Source: a virus
Virus record (IMG/VR): IMGVR_UViG_3300022908_000005
Span: 1 to 38,590 of that record
Strand: one strand, 5' to 3'
DNA length: 38,590 nt
Position 1 is the first letter of the stretch; the number at the start of each line of letters is the position of its first letter. The notes under the pieces were generated by a model. That model was not told where the DNA came from and made no database searches. It saw only the letters and a list, made by a program, of their open reading frames with translations. A program made the position numbers and the translations under genes. Below, piece after piece: positions 1 through 36,698 of the stretch.

Positions 1-51
1 CAGTTGACTACGCGGCCGGCCTCGGTGTGTTCGCGGTAGCGGACGCTGCTT

Positions 52-67
52 GGGGGCTACTGCCCCC
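52..67. terminator. Small GC hairpin
   Basis: GGGGGC (52-57), a TACT loop and GCCCCC (62-67) form a perfect 6-bp stem. There is no T-tract. If the ends of the window join, it would lie downstream of the rightward replication operon and could help end its transcripts. That role is inference. Confidence 0.3.
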
Positions 68-92
68 GCTTGGGTGGGGTGAATTGGGGCCT

Positions 93-366
93 TGCAGGCG
101 CCAAACTCGCAACTTCGCCCGCCCTGGGTCATTTTTGATCCACCCCCTGTAGTCAAAGCGCCTGCAAGCTAGAGCAGGCATGCGCTCCTAGCTGCTGCCC
201 CTCAGGCAAGGCGCCTGCAAGCTTGGCAGAACCCTCCTCGAGCTGCCTCGAGCTCGCTACGGTGCAGGCGCTGTCCTTAGCTGAGCTGATGTGGGGCGGT
301 GTGGGAGCGGCTAGGCGCCTGCAAGGGGGAGAGGGGAGAGGGAGTGGACTGGCCGAGTGCAGGCGC
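93..366. repeat. Six iteron-like 9-bp repeats
   Basis: The core GCGCCTGCA occurs at 158-166, 211-219 and 315-323. Its complement TGCAGGCGC occurs at 93-101, 263-271 and 358-366. In the core's orientation the extended form is RGCGCCTGCAM. Start-to-start spacings are 65, 53, 52, 52 and 43 bp, so several lie about five helical turns apart. No other copy was noticed elsewhere in the window. Arrays like this in phages and plasmids serve as replication, partition or terminase recognition sites. Which applies here is not shown. Confidence 0.75.
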
Positions 367-670
367 TTAGCTGTAAGATCTCCAAGCGGGCGGGACCACG
401 CATCCCTACCGCCACGCGCCCCGGGCCAGTCGACCCTACAGGCTAGCCGCGGGGCGCACTGTGTTACCCTCCCGCGCAAGCAGGCCAGCCGAGGGCATAA
501 GGTCGGCCGGTAAGTGTCGGAGTCGCTACCCGCCCGCCTGCTGCTAATGCTACCCTCCCGCCAGGCCACAGCACGACCCGAAAGGGGAGGCCCACTAGCC
601 GGCAACTCAGGAGCCGACCGGCCTAGTCGAGTTAGCCACGGCGCTCGGCGGGCGCTGGTGAATGTGCCTG

Positions 671-700
671 GCCTCCGATCGGTTAATCCCGATCGGAGGC
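671..700. terminator. Perfect 12-bp stem hairpin
   Basis: GCCTCCGATCGG (671-682), a TTAATC loop and CCGATCGGAGGC (689-700) form a perfect inverted repeat. It lies beyond the last leftward genes, so it is best read as the terminator of that operon. Neither strand carries a long T-run after the stem, so a terminator needing another factor, or a protein-binding or cruciform role, is also possible. Confidence 0.5.
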
Positions 701-703
701 TGT

Positions 704-949
704 CTAATGCCCCCGAGGCTGGTAGCTAGTAGCCGACCGCCGCACAAACCACTGGTGAGCCATCCGCCAGAGCATGCCTACCCCGGAGCATGCCCGGTGA
801 GCCCGCTGGAACTCCGTCCACCAGCGCCAATGCGTAAGGCTCCGCCCGTTCGCCATGAGCCGGTTAGGGATCCATGCCGACCGCGCTCCACATCGCTGGC
901 AACTCGCCTCGTTCACCCCGAGACTGATCCAGCTACGGGTCCGGCTCAA
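704..949 (-). CDS. Doubtful small protein, end of leftward operon
   Basis: This is an 81-residue frame whose TTG start overlaps the stop of the DUF4417-like gene as TTGA, the same kind of overlap seen along the operon. The product has one CxxC pair (SCQRCG) and a Trp-rich stretch (HWRWWTEF). It resembles no family I know, and the TTG start is weak. The overlap and the hairpin downstream are the only support, so it may not be a gene. Confidence 0.25.
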   Translation of the reverse strand: MSRTRSWISLGVNEASCQRCGARSAWIPNRLMANGRSLTHWRWWTEFQRAHRACSGVGMLWRMAHQWFVRRSATSYQPRGH

Positions 950-5277: not shown

Positions 5278-5552
5278 GGCCGCCGCGCTTTCATCGCTTC
5301 CGCAATCTCGCGCAGCTGCGCATCGGTAGGGGGTGCGATTACCGGCGCAGTGTCCGCGCTCTCTGCCATTTTTGCAGCGCAGGAAAGGCAGACAAACGTG
5401 GCATAAGACGCTTCGGGTCGCGTGAATGAGGACGGTGAAAAAAAAGTCGGCTGGTCGCATAGCTGGCAGTTCAGCAAGCGCGTACCAGCGATTTCGTGCT
5501 CCATCCTCCCCTCGCTAGGGGCGCCCACCATGAAAATGGTATCGGTTGTCAC
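5274..5552 (-). CDS. Small zinc-ribbon protein
   Basis: The product has 92 residues from a GTG start at 5552 (GTGA overlap). Two CxxC pairs, CQLC (29/32) and CLSC (55/58), are 22 residues apart, with aromatic residues between them, as in zinc ribbons. The C-terminal helix (AQLREIAEAMKARRP) is basic. It lies between the XRE-type regulator and another zinc mini-protein. A DNA- or RNA-polymerase-associated role is conceivable, but nothing in the sequence proves it. Confidence 0.65.
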   Translation of the reverse strand: MTTDTIFMVGAPSEGRMEHEIAGTRLLNCQLCDQPTFFSPSSFTRPEASYATFVCLSCAAKMAESADTAPVIAPPTDAQLREIAEAMKARRP

Positions 5553-6481
5553 GACTCGCGCCCCGTATAGAACACGACCGCCCGCCGGAGCACCTCGTTC
5601 TCCTCGCGCAGCTGCGCCAACTCATGCGATCCGCCGGCTAGCTCCCCTCGAGCGCGGGCCGCGCGTAGCGTTGTATTCTCGTTTCGCAGCTCCGTTATCT
5701 CGTGCCGCATCCTTGCAACATCCGGAGCCGCGAAGTGCGCTCGGATCTCGGGCTCCGGTGCGGGCTCGTCCTCCTCCGGCTCCGGATCGGGGAACCGTTC
5801 CAGGTTTGTCACTACGACATTAGCGGCCGGCGCTTTCGGTCCGTCCCGGAGTTCGAGCAAGTGATCGAGATCCAGATCCAGCGCGATCGATAGCCCTAGC
5901 AAATCATCGTCAATGGGCGCCACATCCCCCGATTCATAGGTCGTGAGCCGCGTAGGGACTGCGAGCTTAGCAAGCCTTGCCGCGTCCTTTTGTTGCAAGC
6001 CCTTTGCGATCCGAGCCTTGCGCAGCGCCTCGGAGAGCGGGGTCGGGGTGTGCTGCTTGGGAACGCGCTTTCGTCTACCGCCGATCGGGATCGGAGCTTG
6101 CGGAGGGGGAGCGCTATCCGGGCGCTTCACCAGGACGAGATTTTGCGGCGCGGGCTCCGGCTTGTTTGCGGCCTGTGCCTCCGATTTCTGCCGAGCCTCC
6201 GCCTCGATCTGCGCATTGATCCGATCGATATCGGCCGGGCTAAGAAGCGGGGTCGAGACCTTGACCGCCTCCCTCGGAGCTTTCTCCATCGGTCTAAGGT
6301 CGGGGTACATAATGTGCTGAGGAGCTTGCGGCCCCTCGTTGTAAATCACCTCACACCCCCGGCTCGTCCGCCGATGGATCTTGGCCGGTCGCCACGTCTC
6401 CCTCCCGTTATGGGTGTTTCGGACCTCGACTGCTTGGAACCGATAGTAAACCTCTTGAACCTGCGCGCCTCGAATTGTCAT
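5549..6481 (-). CDS. XRE-type HTH protein with C-terminal leucine zipper
   Basis: The product has 310 residues. The N-terminal 70 residues are a small aromatic-rich domain of unknown type. A Pro/Ala linker leads to an XRE-like helix-turn-helix at about 148-213 (LRKARIAKGLQQKDAARLA, then TYESG). The C-terminal 60 residues form a coiled coil ending LREENEVLRRAVVFYTGR, very like the end of IS3-family OrfA. The start has a strong Shine-Dalgarno (GGAGAGGG). It is the third of three neighbouring DNA-binding proteins whose C-termini match each other. It is probably a DNA-binding regulator that can dimerise through the zipper. Confidence 0.75.
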   Translation of the reverse strand: MTIRGAQVQEVYYRFQAVEVRNTHNGRETWRPAKIHRRTSRGCEVIYNEGPQAPQHIMYPDLRPMEKAPREAVKVSTPLLSPADIDRINAQIEAEARQKSEAQAANKPEPAPQNLVLVKRPDSAPPPQAPIPIGGRRKRVPKQHTPTPLSEALRKARIAKGLQQKDAARLAKLAVPTRLTTYESGDVAPIDDDLLGLSIALDLDLDHLLELRDGPKAPAANVVVTNLERFPDPEPEEDEPAPEPEIRAHFAAPDVARMRHEITELRNENTTLRAARARGELAGGSHELAQLREENEVLRRAVVFYTGRES

Positions 6482-6515
6482 GGGTTATCCCTCTCCGCTT
6501 TGTTTGGTTTAGTCC

Positions 6516-6845
6516 CTACCCGCGTCCGAGCAGCACGATCGTTTTTCGCAATGCTCGGACCTCTTCCAATAATTGATCGCGCTCGCGAATGAGCGCACCC
6601 CGCTCGCTCTCACTCCCTCGAGCTTCTACCCCGTTCGATGGCGCCCGCGCTGCCGGGGTATATCCGGTGCGGCTCGGCTCCTCCGGAGCGCTACTGATCC
6701 CGTATTTGTGCGACCAGTAATAAAGGCGCGATTTGGAGACCCCGAGTTCCAGCGCGACCGCTTGCACTGATCTGCGCCCTCGGTTCCAAAACGCGCTAGC
6801 CGCCCGCCGCTCGAACTCCTCGCTATTTTGCGGCCGGCTTGTCAC
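6516..6845 (-). CDS. OrfA-like HTH/leucine-zipper protein 2
   Basis: The product has 109 residues from a GTG start that overlaps the upstream stop (GTGA). Residues 9-45 form a transposase-type helix-turn-helix (RSVQAVALELGVSKSRLYYW), as in the HTH_Tnp_1 domain of IS3 OrfA. After a disordered linker, residues 83-107 form a zipper (RDQLLEEVRALRKTIVLL). The layout and length match OrfA, but no DDE transposase frame or IS end lies nearby. It is probably a standing phage regulator derived from an OrfA-like protein. Confidence 0.75.
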   Translation of the reverse strand: MTSRPQNSEEFERRAASAFWNRGRRSVQAVALELGVSKSRLYYWSHKYGISSAPEEPSRTGYTPAARAPSNGVEARGSESERGALIRERDQLLEEVRALRKTIVLLGRG

Positions 6846-7192
6846 CCTCTCCGCCTCGCAAAAACCATGACGGTTTTCGTCAGGATCTCGATCTCCTCCC
6901 GGAGGGTATCGATCTCGCGCTTGAGTCCCGCGGTCTCTGGGTCGTAAGCCTTCCGCGCGACCATGGCCCGCGGCCGCTCGGGCTGCCGTGGCGCGAGCTT
7001 CTGAATACCCGCGGCCTTGCTGTCCGCTTTAGCCTTCCAAACGTAGAGAGTCGGCTCGCTCACCCCGATTGATTTCGCCGCCTCCGTCGAGGTCGACCCC
7101 TCCGATCGGAGTTTCGTCCATGTGGCGAGCGCCTTTTCAACGAAGGCCTCCGAATACTTGTAAGTTTTCGATTTCGACTGCTTTTTGCCCAT
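6842..7192 (-). CDS. OrfA-like HTH/leucine-zipper protein 1, operon lead
   Basis: I prefer ATG 7192 (116 residues) over an in-frame TTG at 7222. The helix-turn-helix lies at about 12-60 (YSEAFVEKALATWTKL, then TSTEAAKSIGVSEPTLYVWK), as in IS3-type OrfA. The C-terminal zipper (REIDTLREEIEILTKTVMVF) matches those of the two genes downstream. It heads the long leftward accessory operon and lies just after an AT-rich palindrome at 7223-7242, so it may control its own promoter. No transposase partner is present. Confidence 0.75.
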   Translation of the reverse strand: MGKKQSKSKTYKYSEAFVEKALATWTKLRSEGSTSTEAAKSIGVSEPTLYVWKAKADSKAAGIQKLAPRQPERPRAMVARKAYDPETAGLKREIDTLREEIEILTKTVMVFARRRG

Positions 7193-7222
7193 GAATCCTA
7201 ATTCCCTCGGGGTCAAGTCCAA

Positions 7223-7242
7223 TTGATTACTAAACTAATCAA
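7223..7242. promoter_or_regulatory. AT-rich palindromic operator
   Basis: TTGATTA (7223-7229), a CTAAAC spacer and TAATCAA (7236-7242) form a perfect 7-bp inverted repeat. It is strikingly AT-rich for this DNA and lies 31 bp upstream of the first leftward gene. It is a probable binding site for a dimeric regulator, perhaps one of the three helix-turn-helix proteins it precedes. Confidence 0.6.
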
Positions 7243-7319
7243 AAAGGCGCAACCTTCTAGGGTCCCCGGTCGAGACGATTTTGCCGGTGTTAGCGGGGGC
7301 AGAATGCAACGGGGTGGCG

Positions 7320-7335
7320 GATTTCACGTGAAACG
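7320..7335. promoter_or_regulatory. parS-like palindrome
   Basis: The perfect 12-bp palindrome TTTCACGTGAAA (7322-7333), followed by C, matches the core of the bacterial chromosomal ParB site (consensus TGTTNCACGTGAAACA) at 13 of 16 positions. The mismatches are the two outer left bases and the last base. No ParA or ParB gene is seen in the window. It may attract host ParB, or be an operator of another kind. Confidence 0.45.
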
Positions 7336-7336
7336 A

Positions 7337-7365
7337 CTGGCGCGCGGATATCTGCGCGCTACACT
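7337..7365 (+). promoter_or_regulatory. Promoter A with palindrome in spacer
   Basis: The -35 candidate CTGGCG (7337-7342), 17 bp, then TACACT (7360-7365) as -10. The spacer region carries a near-perfect palindrome, GCGCGC/GGATATCT/GCGCGC (7340-7359, one mismatched pair). The gene's ATG is only 7 nt beyond the -10. A near-identical arrangement stands before the gene at 30911 on the other strand, so both are probably controlled by one dimeric repressor or activator. Confidence 0.6.
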
Positions 7366-7372
7366 GTCCAGC

Positions 7373-7570
7373 ATGCAAACGCATATTATGGTCGGTGAAT
7401 GGGGATACGCGGTCGATACGGATGCGGAGCGCGCGGAGGCGGTCCTTGCCCTGGTCGAGGCGGGCCAGGCGGAAGCCCGGGTCTATTTCGGCGATTTCGC
7501 GGATGATAGTAGCTATCCGAGCGAAAAATGCCTGACCGCAAAAGGGGAGATCCTCTTTGTCCAAGCGTGA
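7373..7570 (+). CDS. Small unknown protein
   Basis: The product has 65 residues from ATG 7373, which lies 7 nt after a plausible -10, so the message is probably leaderless. A second ATG (7388) is possible. The sequence has an acidic helix (DTDAERAEAVLALVEAGQ) and a strand-rich end (ARVYFGDF, GEILFVQA). No family is recognised. It leads a three-gene rightward operon transcribed away from the accessory operon. Confidence 0.55.
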   Translation: MQTHIMVGEWGYAVDTDAERAEAVLALVEAGQAEARVYFGDFADDSSYPSEKCLTAKGEILFVQA

Positions 7571-8831: not shown

Positions 8832-10283
8832 TCATTTGCGCAGCTGGAACCCGAGCTTGCGCGCCCGCTTCTCCGCTCGCCTCTTGACCTCGGCGCGAGT
8901 TTTGGCGCTCTCCGCCTTCCACCATTCGGGCGTGCCTGGCTTTGGCGGCTCTAGCTCCGGCTGATACCAAGTCCGCGCAGCTCGGACCGAGTAGAGCAGC
9001 GAGTCCGCGCAGTGGTTATCAAATCGCGAGTCCTCGGCCATGCGCCCCGGGCCCCACTGGAGAAGACACATTTCGTCTACCAGCTGCGAGCATTCACGCG
9101 CCACGATCCGGATCACGCCGCTCTTGAGTTCGCCCGCCACGATCTCTTGGTAGGCGCGCTTTTTGGTTTTCTCCGCCGCCACACATCCGATCCCGTAGCG
9201 CTGCCGCATCTCCTCCGCGTAGCCTTTACCGATTCCGCCCTCATCTACGACAACCTGTAGACCGGGCCCGAACTCATTCCGAAACCCCTCGACGTGAGCC
9301 GCCACGGCAGCAGGAATGAGCCCCTCACGTTTCCAGGACCGGACGATCCAGATCTCGGGGGAGCCCGTCCGCGTGGCGGCTACCGTGAAAGCCGTGGCAT
9401 CGATAAACCCGATATCTACCCCGAGGATATAGCGGAGCCCCTCATCCGGCACGTCCGACATACGGATCCCGTTCAACGTCGAGCTGTACGGATACACCAG
9501 CGCGCTCTCATCGCGCACCCATTCGCCGAGATACTCCCGCTGGTAGGTCGCGCTATGTTCATCGAGCCCGTAGGTCTCCATGAACAGCTTCACCTCCGCG
9601 GCCGCGTTCGGAATGTGCGGGTTATCGAAAATGGTCCAGTGGTGCGTTGGCCACTGCGGCGACCCGTCGCCCGTGCTGGACTCGTAGAATAACCCCGCGG
9701 GTATGGGGCTCGGAGTGCCAGCGAGTAACAACATGCCCGCCTTGTCGATTAGCGCGGGCTCAAACGCATCCGTTACCAGCTCGCGCAAAAACGAGCCGTA
9801 CTCTTGCGCCTCGTCAATGGCGACACGCTTGTATTTCGAGCCGCGGAATTTGCCGACCTCCGATCCATCCTTACAGCCCGCGAGCCAAACATTGTGCCGC
9901 GTGAGTCCGATATGTAGCAGCAGCTGTCCATCAATCTCGCGGAGCTTGAGGCGTAGCTCCGGGTAGCGAGAGACGAAGTGGTCGATCGCTGGTTGCAAGA
10001 TGCGCCGCGCGTCGCCCTTGCTGCGCGCCACGTAGACACTGAGCCCGCCCGGATCGTCTAGCCCGCCATCGATCAGCCAAGCCATGATCCCATGCGACTT
10101 GCCGGCTCGGCGCGAGCAGATAGCGACCCTCCGCCGGCATTTGTCGAGGACAAAAGCCCGCTGTTTGGGGTGCAAGTCGTCCAAAAACTTGCGCCCTTTT
10201 TCGATATCGCGGCTGGTCCTTACGCGCTTTTCCAGCTCCCCGCGCAGCTCAGGCGGCAGCCGGCCGAATTGCTCGGGAGTCAC
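8832..10283 (-). CDS. terL: Terminase large subunit
   Basis: This is the packaging motor ATPase and nuclease. The 483-residue product has a Walker A variant SRRAGKS at 57-63, Walker B VAIDE at 154-158, and an adaptor region ending in LLAGTPSP (about 187-194). The RNase-H-like nuclease has acidic residues at D290 (LGVDIGF), D347 (VVVDEGG) and D422/D427 (FDNHCADSLL). The C-terminal 40 residues are basic. The start is GTG, 3 bp after the upstream stop. It is transcribed leftward, opposite to portal and capsid genes, which is unusual. The identity is secure. Confidence 0.95.
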   Translation of the reverse strand: MTPEQFGRLPPELRGELEKRVRTSRDIEKGRKFLDDLHPKQRAFVLDKCRRRVAICSRRAGKSHGIMAWLIDGGLDDPGGLSVYVARSKGDARRILQPAIDHFVSRYPELRLKLREIDGQLLLHIGLTRHNVWLAGCKDGSEVGKFRGSKYKRVAIDEAQEYGSFLRELVTDAFEPALIDKAGMLLLAGTPSPIPAGLFYESSTGDGSPQWPTHHWTIFDNPHIPNAAAEVKLFMETYGLDEHSATYQREYLGEWVRDESALVYPYSSTLNGIRMSDVPDEGLRYILGVDIGFIDATAFTVAATRTGSPEIWIVRSWKREGLIPAAVAAHVEGFRNEFGPGLQVVVDEGGIGKGYAEEMRQRYGIGCVAAEKTKKRAYQEIVAGELKSGVIRIVARECSQLVDEMCLLQWGPGRMAEDSRFDNHCADSLLYSVRAARTWYQPELEPPKPGTPEWWKAESAKTRAEVKRRAEKRARKLGFQLRK

Positions 10284-10655: not shown

Positions 10656-10846
10656 CAGTCGGCTCCGAGTTCGCTAAACGGGGTCGCGCTGTCGTTCGCT
10701 ACCTCCCACGTTGCATAACGGATCATATCGTCCGGATGCCAGTGCTTGGCGCCCGTGTTTTTGGCGATCACCAAGAACCCGCCGTCCATGCGCTCAATGC
10801 TGGCGGACTCGAGGTTATACGCCGCTTCCCCGTCCTCCCCCGGCAT
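10655..10846 (-). CDS. Small unknown protein in packaging operon
   Basis: I prefer ATG 10846 (63 residues), which leaves a 32-bp overlap with the upstream terminase small-subunit candidate. A GTG-or-ATG start at 10969 would extend it to 104 residues but overlap that gene by 155 bp. Strand-rich segments (FLVIAKN, KHWHPDDMIRYATWEV) are visible. No known family. It is coupled to the next gene by a one-base overlap. Confidence 0.5.
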   Translation of the reverse strand: MPGEDGEAAYNLESASIERMDGGFLVIAKNTGAKHWHPDDMIRYATWEVANDSATPFSELGAD

Positions 10847-11480
10847 CTTTAGGGTCAACGCTGTCCATCGCAAACGGGCCCCGGTTAGGGGAGAGACGTT
10901 TGGCAAGTTCCCGTCCGGGGTTAGGCTCAGGAGAGACCTCTTGTCCGTCGCTTTCGATTGTGCGGGCATCTGGTTTTTTGCTTTCGAGTAAAGAGAGGCG
11001 CTGCACCTCTCGCAGTAGATCCGAGTCGGTCATTTGCTGGTAACGGATCACGACCTCGCTATTTGAGCCGGTGAGCCCGAGCGCGTTCGCTACCGTTTGA
11101 GCTGCCGCTAACGCCGAGCGCATATCGGGCCGGCGAACCGTGCGGATGTTGCCCTTCATGTCGACCACCTCCTCGGTCCGCGTTTCACTCGCGATCCCGA
11201 TTTCGGCAATGCGCTCGAGGATCGCTGCTTTCGCCTCCTCGCCTCCCCATGCCATGCGGAGGAGCCGCGTAGCCTCCCCGGCGTAGTGCATGGCTCGCGA
11301 GAGCGGGATATCTAGCCGCGCCGCAAGCTCACGAACGCTACGAAACGGGCGCCACGTCCCTTGCGTGATTTCGAGCGCGATCGATTCGATTATTTTGTCT
11401 TTTTGCAAGGCTGAACCTTGCGCGCCTCCGTCGTCCGGGCGCAGCTTGCGCCTCGACCGGGTAGATTTGACGCCCGCCAT
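10815..11480 (-). CDS. Candidate terminase small subunit
   Basis: The product has 221 residues. Residues 28-60 contain a helix-turn-helix-like segment (SVRELAARLDIPLSRAMHYAGEA), followed by a long helix region that could oligomerise, a conserved-looking RRPDMRSALAAAQTVANALGL stretch with its parts in that order, and a disordered charged tail. It lies upstream of the large terminase in the same operon, where small subunits are usually found. They recognise the packaging site and assemble as rings. The role is inferred from position and the DNA-binding motif, not from a firm family match. Confidence 0.6.
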   Translation of the reverse strand: MAGVKSTRSRRKLRPDDGGAQGSALQKDKIIESIALEITQGTWRPFRSVRELAARLDIPLSRAMHYAGEATRLLRMAWGGEEAKAAILERIAEIGIASETRTEEVVDMKGNIRTVRRPDMRSALAAAQTVANALGLTGSNSEVVIRYQQMTDSDLLREVQRLSLLESKKPDARTIESDGQEVSPEPNPGRELAKRLSPNRGPFAMDSVDPKDAGGGRGSGV

Positions 11481-11922: not shown

Positions 11923-11928
11923 GCGCGC

Positions 11929-11957
11929 AATGTAAGGGGGCTGACAAAAAATGTCAC
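11929..11957 (-). promoter_or_regulatory. Leftward promoter of packaging operon
   Basis: Reading leftward, GTGACA (11957-11952) is the -35, followed by 17 bp and TACATT (11934-11929) as -10. The GroES-like ATG follows 6 nt later, so the message would be leaderless. An inverted repeat TGACA/TGTCA (11942-11956) overlaps the -35 and spacer and may be an operator. The rightward promoter of the portal operon must lie in the same 94-bp gap. A TTGACA stands at 11989-11994, but no good -10 is seen. Confidence 0.55.
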
Positions 11958-12016
11958 GGCAGATCGGACATTGATTGACCGATCGCGCTTGACAGGCGCA
12001 AATTACTCAGAAGCGC

Positions 12017-21323: not shown

Positions 21324-23651
21324 ATGCCAAATCCAGACGGAAGTGAGACACCTCAGGAAAAGCTCCAGCGCGAGGCGGCAGAGCGGCAAGCCCAGCAAGC
21401 GGTACAGCGGCAGACGGCCGGTTACACCCCAACTCCGTTTGTTGATCCGGGACTGAACCGCGCGCAGATTAAAGAGGGCGAGCACGGCGGGGCATGGACA
21501 AACCTGACCGATGCTAAGACCGCGGCCAACGTGGCGGCGGGCAACGCACTGCCCGGCTCATTCCAAAATTGGGGCGGTCAGGTCAAGCAGGACATTGTCC
21601 GAACGAACCTGAGCCGCGCCGAGGCGGACGCGCAGCGGCGGCAAAACTTCGGTTTCGGCTCCGGTAACAATGCCGAGTCCGCCGCCATGATTGGCGAGGC
21701 GCAAGGGACGGCTAACAGGTTCTCCGATGCGTTTGGCGGCATGGCTGGCACGGCTGCCGATCGCTCGGCAGCGGCGAACGGGCGCGGTACGTCCATGTTT
21801 GCGGGCGATACGAGCCAATATAATAAGGGGCTCGATAACGCGCAGCAGTCGCGCGGGATGCAAACGGGCGCCTATGGGCAGCTGATGGATTTCGCGGGCA
21901 AGGGTCCGGGCCCGAGCGCGGCTCAAGCTCAGCTCACGCAAGCGACCGATGCGAATACTCAGAACGCGCTAGCAATGGCCCGCTCCGGTCGCGGCATGGG
22001 CGGAGGCCAGGCGGCTATGCGTCAAGCGATCGGGCAGAACGCAGCAACGCAGCAAGGCGCCGCGGGGCAAATGGCGGAACTGCGCGCGAATGAAAACACC
22101 GCGTTTCAAAATCAAAAACTGAACGCGCTAAATGCGGCCGGCGGTATCGCGGGTCAAACCGTGGCGGGCGATCAGGCATACGGCAAGCTCGGGCTCGAGG
22201 GCGCGCAATACCAGACGGATACCAAGCTCAAGGGAACGCAGCTAAACGACACGACCGCGCAGGCATGGGCGGACCAGCAGAGGGCGGCTACCGCCGATGC
22301 GCATGCCGCGGAGCTAGCGGGCCAAACGCAAACGATGAACGTCAACGCGCAAGCGCTCGCGGGTCGCCAGGCGGAGGAGGACGCTATCTATCGCCAAACG
22401 GCGCTAGAGCGTGGCGAGACTGCGGCAGCTCAAGCAAACCGCCAAGCCACTACTAACGCGCTCATCGGCGCGGGCGCTAGCACGGCTGCCGCTATCTCGG
22501 ATGAGCGGGCAAAAACCAATATCAAGCCCTTGAGCGGTATCACTCCGGGCGCTCCGCAATCCCTGAACGGTATCGCGCCCATTTCAATCAAGGCGCCGCT
22601 GCCGCCTCCGATCGAGGAGCCCGCTCCGGGCCCGAGCGCGGACGAGCGCAGTAAGGAGCGGGCGGGAGCGATCGGGGGTACGGCCGGCAAGCTCGGAGGC
22701 GGAGCGATCGGCGGCTTTGTGGGCGGACCGATCGGCGCGTTCGCGGGCTCAGCTATCGGCGGGCTCGCGGGCAAGGCGCTCGGGAAAGTCTTTTCCGATG
22801 TGCGCAGCAAATCCAATGTCGAGCCGCTCAGTAAGCGCAAGCCGGCTAGCGGCGCGTATGGTGACCTGGAAGCGATCGCGGAGAAGTATGGAGCCGCGGG
22901 CGTGGCGACTAGCCCCGGGGCGGTCGAGCGCTACGCGGGCACGCCAGCCGATCGGGGACCGGAAGTATCTGCGCTCCCGCCTGAGAAGCAAAAGGGCTTC
23001 GATGCTTGGCTCAAGCGCAACAATGTGACCGACCTAGACCACCCCGACAGTCACTATGATTACCGCGGCGCATACCTAGCGGGTGAGGGGCGCGGGCCTG
23101 GCGCAAGCGGTCACTTTACCGATCGTTTCAAGCAGCACGGTCACGAGACTTTTTCTACTCAGTCGCAATACTCCAAGGGCGGCAAAGATGGCGGGGACTG
23201 GGTAGACGATACCTATCTCCCCGAGGCCGCGCAGGACCGGGCGAGCAAGGTAGCGGGCCGCTACGCGCGCGGAGGCACTAACCAAATCTTGAGCGAGGGC
23301 GATGCTCTGCTCGCGGACTCGGCGCGCGCTTCTCCGCCATCCGCCTACGACTACAAAAACCCGGAAGCGCCCGGAGCGAAACCCGGGCGGCAAGTCGGAC
23401 CCATGGCGCAAGACTTGGCGGCTCACCCCGTCACGCGCGGAGTGGTGGATCGGGATCCGGCTACGGGCTTGCTCCAAGTCGACGGCGCGCGTGCGGCTAC
23501 GGTCGGGCTCGCGCAAAACCATTCGCAGCAAAACCAACTCGACGATTTGAACGACCAGATCGCCAAGCTCGAGGGCATGCTCAAGCGCAAGCCAGGCGAC
23601 TCGAGGACCACTGATTTCAAGCGCGACCAGCGCGCAGGCGGGCTCTTGTAA
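21324..23651 (+). CDS. Ejection/tail protein with two S74-type motifs
   Basis: The product has 775 residues. Residues 1-390 are Gln/Ala-rich helices. ISDERAKTNIKPL (about 391-403) and FSDVRSKSNVEPL (about 490-502) both match the SDxRxKxN start of the S74 intramolecular chaperone (endosialidase/tail-spike type), whose Ser and Lys act in self-cleavage. Between them is a glycine zipper (GGGAIGGFVGGPIGAFAG). After the second comes an inserted block with HFTDRFKQHGHETFS, then YDYKNPEAPG, VGPMAQDL and a C-terminal coiled coil, as in S74 domains. It probably is a virion protein that enters or crosses membranes and processes itself. Confidence 0.65.
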   Translation: MPNPDGSETPQEKLQREAAERQAQQAVQRQTAGYTPTPFVDPGLNRAQIKEGEHGGAWTNLTDAKTAANVAAGNALPGSFQNWGGQVKQDIVRTNLSRAEADAQRRQNFGFGSGNNAESAAMIGEAQGTANRFSDAFGGMAGTAADRSAAANGRGTSMFAGDTSQYNKGLDNAQQSRGMQTGAYGQLMDFAGKGPGPSAAQAQLTQATDANTQNALAMARSGRGMGGGQAAMRQAIGQNAATQQGAAGQMAELRANENTAFQNQKLNALNAAGGIAGQTVAGDQAYGKLGLEGAQYQTDTKLKGTQLNDTTAQAWADQQRAATADAHAAELAGQTQTMNVNAQALAGRQAEEDAIYRQTALERGETAAAQANRQATTNALIGAGASTAAAISDERAKTNIKPLSGITPGAPQSLNGIAPISIKAPLPPPIEEPAPGPSADERSKERAGAIGGTAGKLGGGAIGGFVGGPIGAFAGSAIGGLAGKALGKVFSDVRSKSNVEPLSKRKPASGAYGDLEAIAEKYGAAGVATSPGAVERYAGTPADRGPEVSALPPEKQKGFDAWLKRNNVTDLDHPDSHYDYRGAYLAGEGRGPGASGHFTDRFKQHGHETFSTQSQYSKGGKDGGDWVDDTYLPEAAQDRASKVAGRYARGGTNQILSEGDALLADSARASPPSAYDYKNPEAPGAKPGRQVGPMAQDLAAHPVTRGVVDRDPATGLLQVDGARAATVGLAQNHSQQNQLDDLNDQIAKLEGMLKRKPGDSRTTDFKRDQRAGGLL

Positions 23652-25522
23652 TGGCGGGCGAGGAGAACCCCGTTGTTAAGGTCGAGCCTATCCCCGATCA
23701 GCCTGGCGCTCGCTTGCTGCATTTCGCGGACGGCAAGCCGCCGATCGTTGCGCTCGAGGAGGTAGCTCGCCCGCATGAGGAGCGGCTCGCGCATGAGGCA
23801 GAGTCGCCCGTTATTCGCGGGATCAAAAACTTTCTCCAGCCGCCGATCGCTGGCGACTCGCCCATGGCGGAGCGGCGTAGGCAATGGCAACGCGAGCGGC
23901 TAGGCGATGAGGCTCCGCCCGCTGTCGTCTCAATTTCCGATCAGGTCAGCAATGCTCCGCCTCCCGCCGAGCCTCCGCCCGCAGCTGCCCCGGCTCCCGC
24001 AAGCGAGGGCGCAGCTCCGCCTCCCGCTGCCGGCTCCCCTCCCGCTCCCGCCCCGGCGGCAGCTCCGCTCACGACCGACCAGCTAGCGGCGCAGGCCGAA
24101 GATGCTGAGCGCCGAGCAGCGATCGGACGCTTGCAGAATGGTGTGTGGGATCCGGGTAGCGCGGGACGTAAGGCCGGCTTTACCCCGAGCGCGCAGCGGA
24201 CCACTACGGAGCACGGTCCCGCGTATGACGAGGCCGCGGAGGCGAAGCGGCAAGAGCTAGGCGCGGCCGTCCTCGCAGCTCAGCAGGCTAAAGCGGAGTC
24301 CGATAAGGCTACGTTTGACGAGGCCGCGAAATCGGCAGCGCTCCGCAATTTGGAAGCCACGCAAGACGCGGCGCGCATCCGCGCCGGTATGCTGGAAAAG
24401 GAGGCAAATCACCAGCGGCAAGAGGCCTCAATGCAAAAGGACCTAGCCGACTATTCCGAGGCGGAGAAGCCAGACCCGCGCAAATACTGGTCGACACCGG
24501 GCGGGGCATTTTCCGGGATGCTGTCCGCCATCGCTCAGGGTCTCGGCGCGTTCGCGGCTATCCGCTCGGGGACCGAGAATTTTGCGCTCAAGATTGCGCA
24601 AGAAAAAATGCGCATGGAGATGGCGGCTCAAGAGAAGGCTTACGACAACGGCCGGGGCGATCGAAAGAACGCGCTTGCGCGGATGGTCGAGCATTACAAC
24701 GGAGATATGGATCTAGCGCGCCTCGGCCTGCGCGAGGCATTGGCCAAGACCGCACAAACCGAAACCGAGCGATTTGCAGCTCAGTCACGTTCAAAGGATG
24801 TGATGAACCAAGCCAAGATCCTGACCGCGCAATTCGCTCAGGATGGCATGGAGGCGCAGCAAGCTCGCAAGGATTTGGCCGCGGGCAAGGTAACGACCAC
24901 GCAGGACGAGCGCTATCAGCAAGCCGTTGCTGCTCGGGCCCCCGGCTACCATGCTCAGACGCAAGCTCAGCGCGATGCGGACCTAAAGCGCGCAGGCCCA
25001 AAGAAAGCGACTGATTCGAATTTTGAGGCGAACCGGCTCAAGTACGGGGAGAAGAAAGAGGCCGAGGCTCCGGCTCGCGCAGGCCTCGCCAAGATCGCGG
25101 GAGCCATCGGCGCGGTATGGGATCAGGAGACCGGCAAATGGGTCATGCCGAAAGGTAAAGAGGTTAGCATTCCGGGGCATGGCTCCGGATCGTGGAAGCC
25201 TAACGCATTGACGGCGCAGCGGGGGGTGGACTTCCGCAACGATATGGCCGGCGTGGTTTTGGATACCGGCAAAATGATTAGTGGCACCGATGTGCCTGAG
25301 TCCACCCTCAAGCACATCGAGGGTATGTCAGGATCGAGTGGGTCGGACGCGGACGTTTTGCCGGGCCTGAATCGCTTACAGGAGAAAATCGACTCTGCCG
25401 CACGCGAGCGTGACGCAACCTATGGGACCGATGTTGTCGAGGCTCATGAGGCGTCAAAGCGGGAAGTGGTCGCCCGTAACAAAGCCAAGCCGGCTAACGC
25501 TCGGGAGACCCCGGTCAAGTGA
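23651..25522 (+). CDS. Internal virion (ejection) protein, helical
   Basis: The product has 623 residues and overlaps the previous stop by one base (TAATG). Residues 90-140 are a Pro/Ala linker. Residues 150-470 are long Ala/Gln/Glu-rich helices interrupted by a hydrophobic patch (GMLSAIAQGLGAFAAI, about 290). The C-terminal 120 residues are mixed. Composition, size and position between nozzle and fibre genes match the helical internal proteins that podoviruses eject into the envelope. No enzymatic motif is seen. Confidence 0.6.
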   Translation: MAGEENPVVKVEPIPDQPGARLLHFADGKPPIVALEEVARPHEERLAHEAESPVIRGIKNFLQPPIAGDSPMAERRRQWQRERLGDEAPPAVVSISDQVSNAPPPAEPPPAAAPAPASEGAAPPPAAGSPPAPAPAAAPLTTDQLAAQAEDAERRAAIGRLQNGVWDPGSAGRKAGFTPSAQRTTTEHGPAYDEAAEAKRQELGAAVLAAQQAKAESDKATFDEAAKSAALRNLEATQDAARIRAGMLEKEANHQRQEASMQKDLADYSEAEKPDPRKYWSTPGGAFSGMLSAIAQGLGAFAAIRSGTENFALKIAQEKMRMEMAAQEKAYDNGRGDRKNALARMVEHYNGDMDLARLGLREALAKTAQTETERFAAQSRSKDVMNQAKILTAQFAQDGMEAQQARKDLAAGKVTTTQDERYQQAVAARAPGYHAQTQAQRDADLKRAGPKKATDSNFEANRLKYGEKKEAEAPARAGLAKIAGAIGAVWDQETGKWVMPKGKEVSIPGHGSGSWKPNALTAQRGVDFRNDMAGVVLDTGKMISGTDVPESTLKHIEGMSGSSGSDADVLPGLNRLQEKIDSAARERDATYGTDVVEAHEASKREVVARNKAKPANARETPVK

Positions 25523-29306: not shown

Positions 29307-29514
29307 TCCGGAGCCCTTCTAGCTCCCCCTGAGCCTTGCCTAGCTCGTAGCTCAGCCGGCAGATCTCGCGCAGTAGGCGCGCGCAGTGCGGGCAATGGGT
29401 CGCCCCGGGCGGAGGTGGATCTTCTAGCGTCCCCGACTCCGCGCAGGATGAGCAGCGCGGATCGTGGTCGGGGGAATCGAAAGGCTTACCGCATCCGGGG
29501 CAGAGGGTGTCCAT
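29215..29514 (-). CDS. Zinc-ribbon protein of recombination operon
   Basis: The product has 99 residues. CPGC (5/8) with CSSC (21/24) forms a clear zinc ribbon, and CPHC (41/44) starts a second half-site. A helix follows (LREICRLSYELGKAQGELEGL) and then a Pro-rich tail. It lies 9 bp after the Bet recombinase gene and is the last gene of that leftward operon. A DNA-related accessory role is likely from context only. Confidence 0.65.
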   Translation of the reverse strand: MDTLCPGCGKPFDSPDHDPRCSSCAESGTLEDPPPPGATHCPHCARLLREICRLSYELGKAQGELEGLRIMGVHPPRIPQTDAPLLPPPPAGHRSRNTR

Positions 29515-29523
29515 GCGCCGAGG

Positions 29524-30591
29524 CTAGCGCGGAAAGTCCTCGGGATCCTCATCCCGGAAAGCGTCGAGGACGGGATCGGGCTTGAGCTGATTTTCAAGCT
29601 TGGTAACTTGGCGATCGCAACGTTGCCAAGCCTTGCCGAGGTGAGCGTATGACGTAGCCGTCAGCTCGTTTGCCTCGCGGGCCCGCTGGATATCGCGAGC
29701 GAGCGGCGACTGCTTGGCTTTGGTCCCGAGCAGAGCACGCAAGGTCAAGGCTCCCCCGTAGTCGTTCACCATAGGGATCGAGTTCTCGATCGCGATTAGC
29801 GACTCTAGCAAGCGCTCGAAGATCTCCGGGTCCGGCGGGGTGGTCGGCTCGCCCGGATCGTCGTCGTTACCGTGAGCCGTGATCGGCCTGCGTTGCGGTT
29901 CGCTCGGGGGATCGGGCGGCAGCTCGCGGATCGATTCCACGCGCGCGGTTACCATCGGGCGCGGCTGGTCGTTCGTGGCCTGCTCCATCTCGGTATCGGT
30001 ATACAAGCCGCCGCAGTCCTCGGGGAAAGCCTTGCGCAGCGCTTGCGCCTCGGCGCATTTCGCGAGCTGATTCATGGGCATATCCAGCCAGAATTTCGTC
30101 GGCTGCCCGGCTTGCGTGGTCTGCACATACTCGCGCCAATAGACGAGGCCGACCGCCGGCCGATCCCAGTCCTTGCGGTAGACGCGGACCTTAGACCATT
30201 CCGGAAATCCCTTGCCATTGAGCGGGCCGAACTCCGGCTCGTCTTGCCCGTTGTAGCGCCCCGTACGCTGCGCAACAGCCCTCATGCCATCGATCGAGAT
30301 CTGCGCTGCCCACACGTAGCGGCTCTTTTGGTTATCCCAGCGCTTGACGAAATGGATCTGGCGGAGCAAGGGATTTAGGCGGCGCTCTTTCGCGATCTCC
30401 ATCAGTACCGCGAACTCCTCCGGGCTCGCCCCGCTCGCATATTGGTCGCGGATCATCCGCTCTTGCTCCGCCGTGAAACGGAGCGGCGCGTCCGCGAGCG
30501 TGAGCCCTCCGCGTTGCGGCACGACCGCGAGCGCGGTGCCCCGGTCGTTCATCACTAGGCTAGCTTCTAACTGTTTTTCGAGCGTGGTCAT
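29524..30591 (-). CDS. Bet/RecT-family single-strand annealing recombinase
   Basis: Start ATG 30591 overlaps the upstream stop as ATGA and gives 355 residues. Residues 40-215 carry the Bet pattern: MIRDQYASGASPEEFAVLM, RLNPLLRQIHFVKRW, AAQISIDGMRAVAQRTG, then FWLDMPMNQLAKCAEAQALR and KAFPEDCGGLYTDTEM. Bet proteins anneal complementary single strands during phage recombination and need a 5'-3' exonuclease, which is not obvious beside it. The C-terminal 130 residues are phage-specific and partly disordered. Confidence 0.9.
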   Translation of the reverse strand: MTTLEKQLEASLVMNDRGTALAVVPQRGGLTLADAPLRFTAEQERMIRDQYASGASPEEFAVLMEIAKERRLNPLLRQIHFVKRWDNQKSRYVWAAQISIDGMRAVAQRTGRYNGQDEPEFGPLNGKGFPEWSKVRVYRKDWDRPAVGLVYWREYVQTTQAGQPTKFWLDMPMNQLAKCAEAQALRKAFPEDCGGLYTDTEMEQATNDQPRPMVTARVESIRELPPDPPSEPQRRPITAHGNDDDPGEPTTPPDPEIFERLLESLIAIENSIPMVNDYGGALTLRALLGTKAKQSPLARDIQRAREANELTATSYAHLGKAWQRCDRQVTKLENQLKPDPVLDAFRDEDPEDFPR

Positions 30592-31116: not shown

Positions 31117-31175
31117 TGCCTAGTATTGTACGCTTTGCTAGGAATGTAGGCAATGCTATTTCCGAGGTAGCATTG
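31115..31175 (-). promoter_or_regulatory. Leftward promoter with two inverted repeats
   Basis: Reading leftward, TTGCCT (31153-31148), 17 bp, then TACAAT (31130-31125) is the best promoter in the window, and the ATG follows 8 nt later. ATTGCCTA (31115-31122) and TAGGCAAT (31147-31154) are inverted arms bracketing it. CAATGCTA (31151-31158) and TAGCATTG (31168-31175) form a second perfect 8-bp repeat. These are probable operators of the repressor, the Cro-like protein or another regulator. Confidence 0.65.
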
Positions 31176-31281
31176 TCAGGGAAACGCTTGACGCTCGACC
31201 GTTGCATTATGGCAAGAAAATAATCCGCCACGGGATCGAAACCGTATGGACTCCCGTAGCCGACCGTGACGTTATTGCCCG

Positions 31282-33030: not shown

Positions 33031-33308
33031 TGCGCCAGGCGGACGGCAAGATTTGCATGGCCAAGCTCGCGGCCATTGATCACGATCTCGCAGAGCTGGA
33101 CGCGCAGCGTGCGCAGCTCGGGGCGAAGCGTGCCGCGATTTGGGCGGAGCTAGCCGAGGGTGAGGTGGTAGACCTCCGGACCTTGCAGAAACACAAGACC
33201 CCGCACCGGCCGACGCTTGGCCCGGTGAGCGCCGAGGCCCGCGCCGAAGCTCGGTCCTATTTGCAACGTGATGAACTGAACAGGAGAATTAAATATGGCC
33301 AAAAATGA
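33030..33308 (+). CDS. Small coiled-coil protein before integrase
   Basis: The product has 92 residues. Residues 10-45 are a coiled coil (AAIDHDLAELDAQRAQLGAK). The C-terminus is basic (RDELNRRIKYGQK). The last 14 bp overlap the integrase gene. Its place directly before the integrase suggests a recombination directionality factor, but no winged-helix excisionase pattern is visible. The call is position only. Confidence 0.55.
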   Translation: MRQADGKICMAKLAAIDHDLAELDAQRAQLGAKRAAIWAELAEGEVVDLRTLQKHKTPHRPTLGPVSAEARAEARSYLQRDELNRRIKYGQK

Positions 33309-34863
33309 ACAGGGCTCAGGGACGATCCGCACGATCAAGGATCGTGCGACCGGGGCGATCCTCGGCTACCAAGCCTTGCTGCCCCGCGAACTCAGCAAAG
33401 CGCCTCCGGGGTGCAAGAACCCGAAGACCTACCAGCAAGCGCTCAAGAAGCGTTTCGAGTCGGAGCCGGCAGCGCGCGAGTTTTTGACCGCCGTGATCAA
33501 GGAGAAGCTCGACCCTAAAAACATCGTGCACGGGCTCCCGCTCGCTCACTACGTCCAGGACGAGATCCGCGAGCGCTACGAGGCGGCGGTCCTGAAATAC
33601 GAGGTCCCGTCACGGGCGAACATTCACGTATCCGCGTGGCGCAGCATCGATCGCCTATGGCTCAGCCAAGCTCCGTTCTATCAGTGGACCCCGAGCCAGA
33701 TCGATGTGCCAGCGCTCAAGGCTTGGTTTAAAGAGGTCCGGAGCACCGGCAAGAACAGCAAGACAGGCCGGCGGCTAAGCGCCTCATTCATTGGCAATAT
33801 TGGGCAGCTGGTCAAGGCCGCGCTCGACCAGGCGGAGATCGCACCTAACCCGATGGCCTCGGTCAAGCTCCCGAAAAAGGATCCGGTGCGGGTCAAATTT
33901 CTCACGCTGCCCGAGCAGCTACGCTTCTACCAGTCGCCCCAAATCGAGGAGCGCGATCGGTTGATGAACGGATGCGGCATGGGCTCCGGGCTCCGGATCG
34001 GGGAGCTGCTCGGGCTCGAGGAGCCCGACCTTCACATGGACGCGCACGACCCGCACCTCATCGTCCGCTATGGCGGAGACGACCACGCCCCGCCGAAAGG
34101 GCATACAGAGGCAAAGTCCGAGTTCCGCCGTGTCGAATTGTTCGAGCCCGGGCTAGGCTTTTTCCGCGCATGGATGCAGCGCTTCTACCGGGGCGGGGTC
34201 CGCGTATTCGAGGGGCCGCGGGGCGGCTACATGAACGACTGGGATCGGCGCTACACGACCGCCGAGGGAGAGGGCGAGGATGCTATCCCCTCATGGTCCG
34301 AGATCATGGGGCGGCGGGTTACGAGTCACATTGTGATGCGCCATACCTACGCGGTCGCCATGCTCTCCGGTTCATGGGGTTACGATCCGCAGTCGCTAGA
34401 ATTTATTCAGCAGCAGCTCCGCCACGCCGATCTCGGGGTAACGCAGCGCTACTACGGGGGGTATGAGAACGGCGCTCAGGCGAGACAGGTTCGCCATTTC
34501 ACCGGACGTGAGCCGCGCAAGAAAGCAGCGGGTCACGTGACGGCTGCTGCCCTCTTGGGGGTTACTGCCCCTGATGTGTCGTTTGATGCGTCACCCCTCA
34601 AATCCCTCGCCAAAACTGAATATGCGTTAGATGAACGGCATCTAGATTTTAGCCGGTTTCCCGCTGGGAAATTGGGGTCAAGTGATGCGTCGACACATCA
34701 AGCTCTAGCTGCCCTGGCTGCCGAGGTTGGGAGGGCGATCCAGGAATGCGACCCGCTCGCGCTGCCGAGGGCGCTCGACTTGGCGCGCGCAGTCTTACGA
34801 GACCTGAGTACACCGCTCGGGACAACCGAAATCGCCGAGGCTCGTAGCGAGGCGGGGGCATAG
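33295..34863 (+). CDS. int: Tyrosine integrase with long C-terminal extension
   Basis: Integrates the phage into the host chromosome by site-specific recombination. The 522-residue product has the box I Arg at R234 (SGLRIGELLGL), a box II region HIVMRHTYA (H345, R349), then LRHADL (H377) and the nucleophile Y386 (TQRYYGG), nine residues after H377 as usual. H345 is four residues before R349 instead of three, a small deviation. About 136 residues follow the Tyr, far more than normal, rich in Ala/Leu/Asp. A clean AGGAG precedes ATG. attP was not identified. Confidence 0.85.
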   Translation: MAKNEQGSGTIRTIKDRATGAILGYQALLPRELSKAPPGCKNPKTYQQALKKRFESEPAAREFLTAVIKEKLDPKNIVHGLPLAHYVQDEIRERYEAAVLKYEVPSRANIHVSAWRSIDRLWLSQAPFYQWTPSQIDVPALKAWFKEVRSTGKNSKTGRRLSASFIGNIGQLVKAALDQAEIAPNPMASVKLPKKDPVRVKFLTLPEQLRFYQSPQIEERDRLMNGCGMGSGLRIGELLGLEEPDLHMDAHDPHLIVRYGGDDHAPPKGHTEAKSEFRRVELFEPGLGFFRAWMQRFYRGGVRVFEGPRGGYMNDWDRRYTTAEGEGEDAIPSWSEIMGRRVTSHIVMRHTYAVAMLSGSWGYDPQSLEFIQQQLRHADLGVTQRYYGGYENGAQARQVRHFTGREPRKKAAGHVTAAALLGVTAPDVSFDASPLKSLAKTEYALDERHLDFSRFPAGKLGSSDASTHQALAALAAEVGRAIQECDPLALPRALDLARAVLRDLSTPLGTTEIAEARSEAGA

Positions 34864-35081
34864 TGGGCAAGCTCCTCCGGTTCCCGGTACGCCCGGGGCT
34901 CGCGCGCTGCGCGGCTCCGCCTGAGTTACCCACGCTCCGGGGGTTTGTTCTCCAAGCCTACCCCGGGGCGGTCGTGATGCTCGCTCCGGGGCTCGAGTAT
35001 TGGCTGAGCCCCAAGCAAGCTCGGGACATTGCCGGCGACCTCGCCCGGATGGCGGACCTAGCCGATCGGGGGGTCCGGTGA
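34863..35081 (+). CDS. Small unknown protein
   Basis: The product has 72 residues from a GTG that shares its G with the integrase stop (TAGTG). A basic N-terminus (GKLLRFPVRPGLARC) leads to strands (FVLQAYPGAVVML, LEYWLS) and a final helix (QARDIAGDLARMADLADRG). The strand-helix end is common in small phage proteins of unknown role. Coupled to the next gene by GTGA. Confidence 0.5.
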   Translation: MGKLLRFPVRPGLARCAAPPELPTLRGFVLQAYPGAVVMLAPGLEYWLSPKQARDIAGDLARMADLADRGVR

Positions 35082-35449
35082 TTGACCTATCCCTATTTGG
35101 CTCAAGTCGCGGCCACACCCCTACGCGCGCGGCCGGTTGGCGCCCGGAGGTGGATCGGATCGTGATGGCGGTAGCGGAACTGTTCGGGCTCCGCGCTGCC
35201 GATATCCTGGCTTTGGGCCGGAGCAAGTCCATCGCGGAGGCCCGGCTGGTGGCCTATTACGTCGCGCGCCATTGCACGCGGCTGAGCTACCCGGAGCTAG
35301 GGCGGGCGCTCTTGCGGGACCACTCAAGCGTGGTCGCGGGGGTCAAGCGCATGACCTCACTGCGCGAGCGGGACCACTACCTCGGCGGGGTTGTGGACAG
35401 TTTGCTGGAGCGATTTGGCGAGGTGGATCGAACGGAGGGCGACCAGTGA
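35078..35449 (+). CDS. Stand-alone DnaA domain IV-like protein
   Basis: The product has 123 residues from GTG 35078 (GTGA overlap). Residues 25-95 follow the C-terminal DNA-binding domain of DnaA: VMAVAELFGLRAADIL, then SIAEARLVAYYVARH with the basic-loop/helix pattern, and the signature-like GRALLRDHSSVVAGVKRM, matching the DnaA RDHSTV helix. No AAA+ domain is present. Such proteins bind DnaA-box-like DNA and might direct or compete with host DnaA. It lies three genes before the initiator gene in the replication operon. Confidence 0.75.
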   Translation: MIDLSLFGSSRGHTPTRAAGWRPEVDRIVMAVAELFGLRAADILALGRSKSIAEARLVAYYVARHCTRLSYPELGRALLRDHSSVVAGVKRMTSLRERDHYLGGVVDSLLERFGEVDRTEGDQ

Positions 35450-35769
35450 AAATCACGATCGTGCACTTAGGCGGGACGGAGAAGATCTGCGAGTTCGACG
35501 ATTTCGATCCGCCTCGGCCATGGGTGAAATTGCGTTACCCGTGCGGCGGGGGTGTGTGGGCGTTCGCGCTCGCTCACGGCGGGATCGAGGCCAAGCGGGC
35601 GACCTTGCCCGAGTGGCGGATCACGGATGCGGATCTCGCCACGCTGCGCGCCATGGCGCGGGAGGCCGGGATCCATTTTGCAACGGTCCCGTTTGCTCGG
35701 GGGCAAGCGCGCAGGCCGGTCAAGCCACGGAAACCGCCACCCCAAAAGCAATTGGAGCTGTTCAAATGA
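35446..35769 (+). CDS. Small unknown protein in replication operon
   Basis: The product has 107 residues from GTG 35446. The start is MKITIVHLGG with FDDFDPPRPWVKLRYPCGGGVW. A helix (DADLATLRAMAREAGIHFA) and a basic C-terminal tail (RGQARRPVKPRKPPPQK) follow. It ends with ATGA overlap to the initiator. The tail could bind nucleic acid. The family is not recognised. Confidence 0.55.
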   Translation: MKITIVHLGGTEKICEFDDFDPPRPWVKLRYPCGGGVWAFALAHGGIEAKRATLPEWRITDADLATLRAMAREAGIHFATVPFARGQARRPVKPRKPPPQKQLELFK

Positions 35770-36698
35770 GCTGGATCGAGTTGGACGACGGGATCCTCGA
35801 CCATCCGAAATTCATTCGGGCTATCAAGCTCGGGGGCAGCGAGGCCTTGCACCTTTGGCTCGCGCTCCGGGTCTACTGCGCCAAGCATCTAACGGACGGC
35901 AGCGTGCCGCGGGATATGTTGGCGGAGGTCCGCGGGCCGCAGAACCAAGCCAAGCGGGAGCGGGCGCTTGACGCTTTACTAACGGTCGGCCTGCTCGAGG
36001 AGGACGGGGAGAGCGGCTACCGGCTACACGACTTTTTGCAGTGGTCGAAATCGCGGGCTGAGATCCTCGCGGCTCGGCAGCGTAACGCCGCTCGGCAAGA
36101 TCGGTTCCGCGTTACGCATGCGGAGAACGGCAGCGTTAGTAACGGCGTTACTACAGCGTTAGTCACGGCGTCAGTAACGCTGCCCTCTCCTCTCCTCTCC
36201 TCTCCCGATCCTCTCCGATCACAGATCCCCCTGACTCCTTCGGAGTCCGCCCCCCCGGGGGCTGATCTAGCCAGAGCGGATTTGGATTCGTTTGCTCCGG
36301 ATCCCCCGAAAGAGCGCAAAAAGAGGGAGAAAAGGCCAACAAGGGCGGAGAAATGGGTACGATTCCCCGTCGAGTTCGAGCCGGACGAGTCACACCGGCG
36401 CCTAGCTAGCTCGCTCGGGCTGAATTTAGCCGCGCAATTGGCGCTAATCCGGGACCATGAGTTCACAAAACCGAAGTCGGATCCGGCCGCTACCTTGCGC
36501 AATTGGCTCCGAAACGCGGTGAAATTTGGCTCCGGGCCATCCGTCGGGGCGGGCTCGAGGCGCCCATTCCGGCCCGATGGCGTGACGGAAATGGCTGAAA
36601 TGAACGCGGCGCATGATGCTCGGCGGTCGCTGTCCGAGGTCGAGTGGATGCTGCGCAAGGTGCGGGCCGAAGATGCAAAGCGAGCCGCCAATGGGTAA
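35766..36698 (+). CDS. O-like phage replication initiator
   Basis: The product has 310 residues from ATG 35766. The N-terminal 95 residues (WIELDDGILDHPKFIRAI, then ALHLWLALRVYC and LTDGSVPRDML) are the winged-helix region of phage replisome organisers. Residues 120-200 are a disordered linker. Residues 203-253 (FEPDESHRRLASSLGLNLA, LIRDHEFTKPKSD, TLRNWLRNA) resemble the DnaT-like single-strand-binding part found in such proteins, which recruits the host helicase loader. The gene carries a repeat array in its linker codons, as lambda O carries its origin. Confidence 0.75.
   Translation: MSWIELDDGILDHPKFIRAIKLGGSEALHLWLALRVYCAKHLTDGSVPRDMLAEVRGPQNQAKRERALDALLTVGLLEEDGESGYRLHDFLQWSKSRAEILAARQRNAARQDRFRVTHAENGSVSNGVTTALVTASVTLPSPLLSSPDPLRSQIPLTPSESAPPGADLARADLDSFAPDPPKERKKREKRPTRAEKWVRFPVEFEPDESHRRLASSLGLNLAAQLALIRDHEFTKPKSDPAATLRNWLRNAVKFGSGPSVGAGSRRPFRPDGVTEMAEMNAAHDARRSLSEVEWMLRKVRAEDAKRAANG
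36131..36206. repeat. Candidate replication origin iterons
   Basis: Two tandem 23-bp units (36131-36153 and 36154-36176) both start CAGCGTTAGT and differ at three positions. ACGCTG (36177-36182) follows as the inverse of the unit start. Further GTTACGC/GCGTAAC forms lie just upstream (about 36079-36117). A pure pyrimidine run (36183-36206) with four TCTCC units follows. This sits in the linker-coding part of the initiator gene, the same place as the lambda origin. The strand-opening AT-rich part is not obvious. Confidence 0.55.

Follow-up and report, generated by a model that had tools for sequence, protein, structure and literature searches.

An apparently lineage-specific array of six phased 9-bp sites in a gene-free region of a soil phage: possible arm-type sites of its tyrosine integrase

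The sequence GCGCCTGCA is present six times in a 38,590-base IMG/VR phage record from a soil bacterial virus (the whole stretch, called the window below), three times on each strand, and all copies lie within the 274 bp between positions 93 and 366. They form a real, helically phased set of short asymmetric sites, as for a protein which wraps or loops DNA. Thus, we describe an apparently lineage-specific array of predicted protein-binding sites, which is of a type known in general terms. We tentatively suggest that the six sites work like the arm-type attP sites of the tyrosine integrase of the phage; this is the leading explanation but short of probable, and the region was not filed as attP. 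The following sites were found by exact word search:

93..101, minus strand: array site 1, GCGCCTGCA
158..166, plus strand: array site 2, GCGCCTGCA
211..219, plus strand: array site 3, GCGCCTGCA
263..271, minus strand: array site 4, GCGCCTGCA
315..323, plus strand: array site 5, GCGCCTGCA
358..366, minus strand: array site 6, GCGCCTGCA

The six copies compare with 0.95 expected in the window, and six were reached in none of 100 shuffles. When all 9-mers were searched on both strands in a span of 300 bp, the observed maximum was 6 copies; the maxima of 100 dinucleotide shuffles were 2 copies in 35 of them, 3 copies in 64 and 4 copies in one. The copy number, both orientations and the start-to-start spacings of 65, 53, 52, 52 and 43 bp are exactly those given in a preliminary description of this DNA. 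Its phasing of about 52 bp can be kept in part: the spacing is evener than random (CV p 0.002 in 20,000 placements), but a value of 52-53 bp is found in three of the five spacings only. The array was not matched by shuffled sequence, and its helical phasing is seldom reproduced by random placement. The proposed location of all sites on one face of the DNA depends on the point at which the footprint is centred. The helical phase at 10.5 bp is R = 0.88, with p 0.00045 when the period is fixed and p = 0.018 when it is scanned over 10-11 bp (20,000 placements), but R drops to 0.12 for a footprint centred 3 bp to the 5’ side of the middle of the core, and the result is weaker for a centre 2-4 bp off. 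Regarding the flanks, which had been called conserved, a purine precedes the core in all six sites, while the base after the core is A in four and C in two of them, followed by G in four of six. Conservation of the flanks is therefore weak rather than strong.

The gene-free setting of the array was confirmed. Leftward genes extend from approximately 11.9 kb down to position 946, rightward structural genes start at 12 kb, and the rightward early operon ends at 38427. The region 1-945 together with 38428-38590 is the largest gap, and the only large one if the genome is circular; among the gaps longer than 150 bp (38428-945, 7223-7556 and 31117-31416), such an array is present in the first only. 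This gap lies between converging operons, and the array is located 3’ of both. It contains the following elements (no strand assigned):

1..945: gene-free region with the array, from the gap listing
126..142: AT-rich imperfect inverted repeat GGGTCATTTTTGATCCA between sites 1 and 2, the proposed attP crossover core
671..700: hairpin GCCTCCGATCGG-TTAATC-CCGATCGGAGGC with a perfect 12-bp stem and a 6-nt loop

Two hairpins had been reported in the space of the array. The one strong hairpin, at 671-700, is in the gap but lies outside 93-366, and RNA folding of the region 60-420 was no better than that of shuffles on either strand (z 0.05 and 0.62). The same result bears on the explanation that the array is a structured RNA, or a leftover repeat without a protein partner. 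Neighbouring array sites form inverted repeats 9-14 nt long which can pair, in line with such an RNA, but with folding energies equal to those of shuffles and no Rfam match in 1-1600 we consider this explanation very improbable. The hairpin at 671-700 is the only perfect stem of at least 10 bp (loop 3-8) in the genome, and a perfect 12-bp stem was found in 3 of 60 shuffles. It has no U tract and is probably a U-less terminator between the converging operons, which is the more ordinary guess; alternatively, it could be a recombination core. The terminator scan revealed one terminator-like site, at 117-129, which is at chance level, and IHF-like sites with one mismatch were found once in the gap and 17 times in the whole window.

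A further possibility is that the array is of the operator type, with a phage regulator that would bind the six sites and loop or silence the end of the converging operons. Such a regulator could be, for example, the cI-like protein at 31965 or one of the three helix-turn-helix (HTH) proteins encoded at 5549-7222. Indeed, several HTH regulators are encoded, phased sites fit looping, and the array is where both operons converge. However, operators of the cI type are palindromes, which the array sites are not, the array is found 3’ of both operons and not at their start, and a scan of 1-1600 for promoters of the sigma-70 type revealed no promoter-like site. Taken together, a function as operator is unlikely, although well within the range of the conceivable.

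Profile searches assigned families to the terminase large subunit (TerL), the integrase, a RecT-type annealing protein, an HTH repressor, a replication initiator and a DnaA domain IV, and the portal and major head proteins were also identified in the window. The features which matter for the functions discussed below are:

8832..10283, minus strand: terminase large subunit (phrog_2, E 3.1e-36)
10815..11480, minus strand: putative small terminase (TerS), from its position and HTH-like look only
33295..34863, plus strand: tyrosine integrase, 522 aa (PHROG phrog_1, E 1.3e-19)
35000..35449, plus strand: stand-alone DnaA domain-IV protein (PF08299, E 9e-17)
35769..36698, plus strand: repO-type replication initiator (phrog_2447, E 4.9e-30)
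36083..36180, plus strand: iteron-like cluster of six GCGTTA inside repO, the proposed origin (0/300 shuffles)

The putative small terminase had no family match in the profile searches. At 5549-7222, where the three HTH-type proteins are encoded consecutively, two are paralogue-like; this pair has weak transposase profile matches, and one member also has a small-terminase match.

Conservation in related phages, with which the functions proposed in the preliminary description were to stand or fall, was not observed: the array is missing from the relatives examined. With TerL as query, 32 viral loci were obtained, and identity was 70-83% in ten of these; the major head protein yielded 15 loci, 13 of them at 85-97%; in genome contigs, the TerL-profile scan found a single relative at 50% (L162, a MAG contig). 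We sought GCGCCTGCA in 25 relative records and found any copy in 10 of them, with no two copies closer than 114 bp. G026, G027 and G028, three additional records collected via the DnaA-domain, DUF4417 and initiator proteins, do not harbour the array, and a MAG found via TerL (G029) contains 28 scattered copies. The complete early/terminase junction of G012 has no array, and the same is true for the 18.6-kb contig L070, which encodes relatives of the DnaA-domain protein and of RepO. The record of the closest relative, G001, stops 89 bp past the neighbouring gene, and those 89 bases are unlike the window. When eight records, the window and seven relatives, were compared for repeats by one rule, the array was found in the window, a different array in G004 and nothing in two records, while the repeats of the others lie within minisatellite-like stretches or ORFs. 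Each of the three functions originally considered, origin, partition and packaging, is weakened.

For packaging, the array would be the pac or cos site recognized by the small terminase. Both contig ends fall within the gap that contains the array, and the end of G001 89 bp past the same gene is a similar case. However, the contig break of G002 falls within a gene-variable stretch; such contig ends may therefore have a different cause, and for this reason the idea that the contig ends are physical genome ends was rejected. Further, the array is approximately 10 kb away from terS. The terminase is common to relatives without the array (70-83% identity for TerL and about 50-59% for TerS), which disfavours packaging, because the recognition site would have had to change wholly while the terminase retained these identities. 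Judged from these sequences, recognition of the array by the terminase seems unlikely, although not impossible, and a role as packaging site is improbable. A site for partition or segregation is most improbable. The clustered sites are broadly like centromere-like arrays, but no ParA- or ParB-like match was found among the subset of window proteins that was scanned, and the integrase points to an integrating life style.

Apart from the array, the window carries a repeat cluster inside its initiator gene, which bears directly on the question of an origin. Inside repO, six copies of GCGTTA are present in a span of 100 bp, from nt 315 onwards. The repO homologue of L070 contains six copies of CGTCAC (2760-2825), mostly in 10-bp steps, from nt 321, and that of L071 eight copies of CGTGAC (6336-6448) from nt 336; neither cluster was reached in 300 shuffles. 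In an ORF of G010 not assigned to a family (2470-2581) there is a nine-copy cluster (0/300 shuffles), while the cluster in the repO homologue of G012 is not significant, since it was reached by 7 of 300 shuffles. In the same test on 17 window genes, repO was at the top with 6 copies against at most 5. According to PMC7466680, lambda and the Stx phages likewise have their origin in the central part of gene O. Since the window has its own iteron-like cluster in repO, at the same place as in two of three homologues, the main origin is probably located there, as far as gene anatomy can tell. Thus, the initiator genes of this group have sequence-divergent iteron-like clusters at nearly the same in-gene position, a finding which is firmer than the attP reading, and owing to the nearly constant position origins should be predictable from sequence.

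Origin function had been the foremost explanation of the array and was given up as such after the in-gene clusters were found. Compared to a lambda-type origin with iterons in gene O, to which the cluster at 36083-36180 corresponds, the array lies outside repO, approximately 2 kb from its end via the contig ends, is non-coding, and has spacings of 43-65 bp instead of the 10-26 bp in the repO clusters. It could nevertheless be bound by the DnaA domain-IV protein or by RepO, and serve as a second origin or as an initiator-titration site. In favour of this, it resembles a DnaA-box cluster in that 9-mers are present in both orientations, and a DnaA domain-IV protein is encoded. We nonetheless find such a role in replication rather doubtful. 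The equivalently placed clusters in repO and in two of its homologues argue against it, as do G012 and the L070 fragment, which encode DnaA domain-IV proteins (60% identity in L070) in records without the array. Canonical DnaA boxes are not enriched: GCGCCTGCA matches TTATCCACA at three of nine positions, and the only exact TTWTNCACA box in the genome is at 37997, with none in the array. The array is also near the maximum of the cumulative GC skew, although the skew tracks gene orientation as well. Further, the protein differs from DnaA itself by being devoid of AAA+. More specifically, the array might consist of non-canonical boxes for the stand-alone, ATPase-less DnaA domain-IV protein, which would wrap the DNA and control replication or host initiation apart from the RepO origin, but this we consider quite improbable.

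We return to the suggestion that the sites work like attP arm-type sites. The amino-terminal domain of the integrase would hold several array sites at once. Since the sites are near whole helix turns, wrapping of the DNA into a compact intasome is possible, and this would bring the catalytic domains to the crossover core. The latter is guessed at 126-142, a stretch which separates site 1 from sites 2-6. Binding of the integrase to the sites, the location of the core and integration of the phage at all are inferred. Several short repeated sites of the arm type are present (six exact 9-mers in 274 bp), and so is the gene for a tyrosine integrase, by phrog_1 and by a PF00589 score of 25.4 bits, just below the cut-off of 27.1. 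The array is not adjacent to int, from which it is approximately 3.8 kb away via the contig ends, assuming a circular genome. An attP is usually located beside int, but this is not obligatory. The integrase gene in the window has no non-coding DNA on either flank, and therefore its attP would have to be within a gene, be it int or any other, or in a gap elsewhere.

The distribution among relatives is consistent with the integrase as partner. In the ten relative records mapped, no match to this integrase was found in nine and one of 28% identity in L055, which is also without the array; L055 was likewise the only hit in a search of the collected loci. That no relatives of the integrase were detected in viral contigs, phages, genome contigs and plasmids counts against the attP reading. 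G012, G002 and G010 encode different integrases and none of them has the array, while relatives of TerS, RepO and the DnaA-domain protein are present in records without it. Going by these sequence matches, the integrase is the DNA-binding protein whose occurrence agrees best with that of the array in the relatives compared, albeit the occurrence of both in one genome is a single coincidence and not a correlation.

Similar arrangements are known from the literature. In the mycobacteriophage Pixie attP contains six arm-type sites, one of them inverted, and in CrimD four 11-bp sites, two of them inverted, with a stem-loop terminator within attP, according to the passages on attachment sites in PMC3203893. 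The same passages state that arm-type sequences can differ between phages whose integrases are related. For lambda, five arm-type sites over a 240-bp att site are given in the corresponding part of PMC4880445. The array is like the attP arms of lambda, L5 and the Cluster K phages Pixie and CrimD, with asymmetric sites of 9-11 bp in mixed orientation over approximately 250-300 bp, a stem-loop nearby and a tyrosine integrase in the genome. It differs from them by its location away from int, by the lack of a common core or attB in our searches, and by an arm-binding domain which is only putative. Indeed, a Pfam search with integrase residues 1-130 gave no relevant match for such a domain, and two AlphaFold models of the integrase, built without relatives, had pLDDT values of 36.7 and 51.5 and were unusable. 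An exact-phrase literature search for attP distant from or not adjacent to the integrase retrieved no paper.

The putative core GGGTCATTTTTGATCCA is the sole stretch in 1-945 with at least 9 A/T per 12. In the viral collection it has four other copies, a chance-level number, and no genes are shared. Plasmids searched with the core region gave eight matches at E 6, two of which were inspected and were uninformative, and nothing meaningful was found as attB or core match in the plasmid and phage collections. No tRNA-like T-loop motif was found in the gap, while in G012 and G010 the 3’ end of int seems, by eye, to carry attP, with tRNA-like tails there. If the array is part of attP, the virus would be a temperate phage with an attachment site detached from its integrase gene, and the site would provide a lead to the host.

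Clusters of GCGCCTGCA were also found elsewhere. Scanning viral contigs for an inverted pair of GCGCCTGCA 25-55 bp apart resulted in 90 stretches. At least four copies within 400 bp were present in four of 161 loci compared, the window copies aside, and none of the four was accepted as a parallel array: the cluster of L151 is on one strand with distances in multiples of 3 and thus coding, that of L077 is inside an ORF, and L135 and L096, judged by eye, seem to be relatives of one another but not of the window. Among the phages chosen by the motif itself, two unrelated ones (G030 and G031) each contain a cluster of five copies, and in a third (G032) three copies are found in a span of 100 bp. 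The simplest reading of the clusters elsewhere is chance convergence. In L135 (3200-3508) and L096 (3322-3595), clusters of GCCTGCA-rich repeats separate the terminase region from a large gene of the replication type.

The comparison of related records revealed additional repetitive elements. The divergent promoter region between the groES-like and portal genes (11923-12016) keeps the motif TGTCACG. This interval was compared in G001, G002, G004, G005 and G006; repeats similar to GACATT-N-TTTGTC are present in G001 and G006, and the region is likely a shared operator. The different array of G004 (L061), at approximately 23558-23726, consists of ten GGAACC copies in 170 bp beside an AAA_25 gene, and at the equivalent place G005 harbours a D5-type gene and GTGGTGCA repeats; these are swapped replication modules, each with its own repeats. 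Finally, minisatellites of 12 bp are present in G012 (1-130 and 37129-37868), G010 (1-308 and 38461-38748) and G002 (29482-29824), and the contigs of G012 and G010 break at them.
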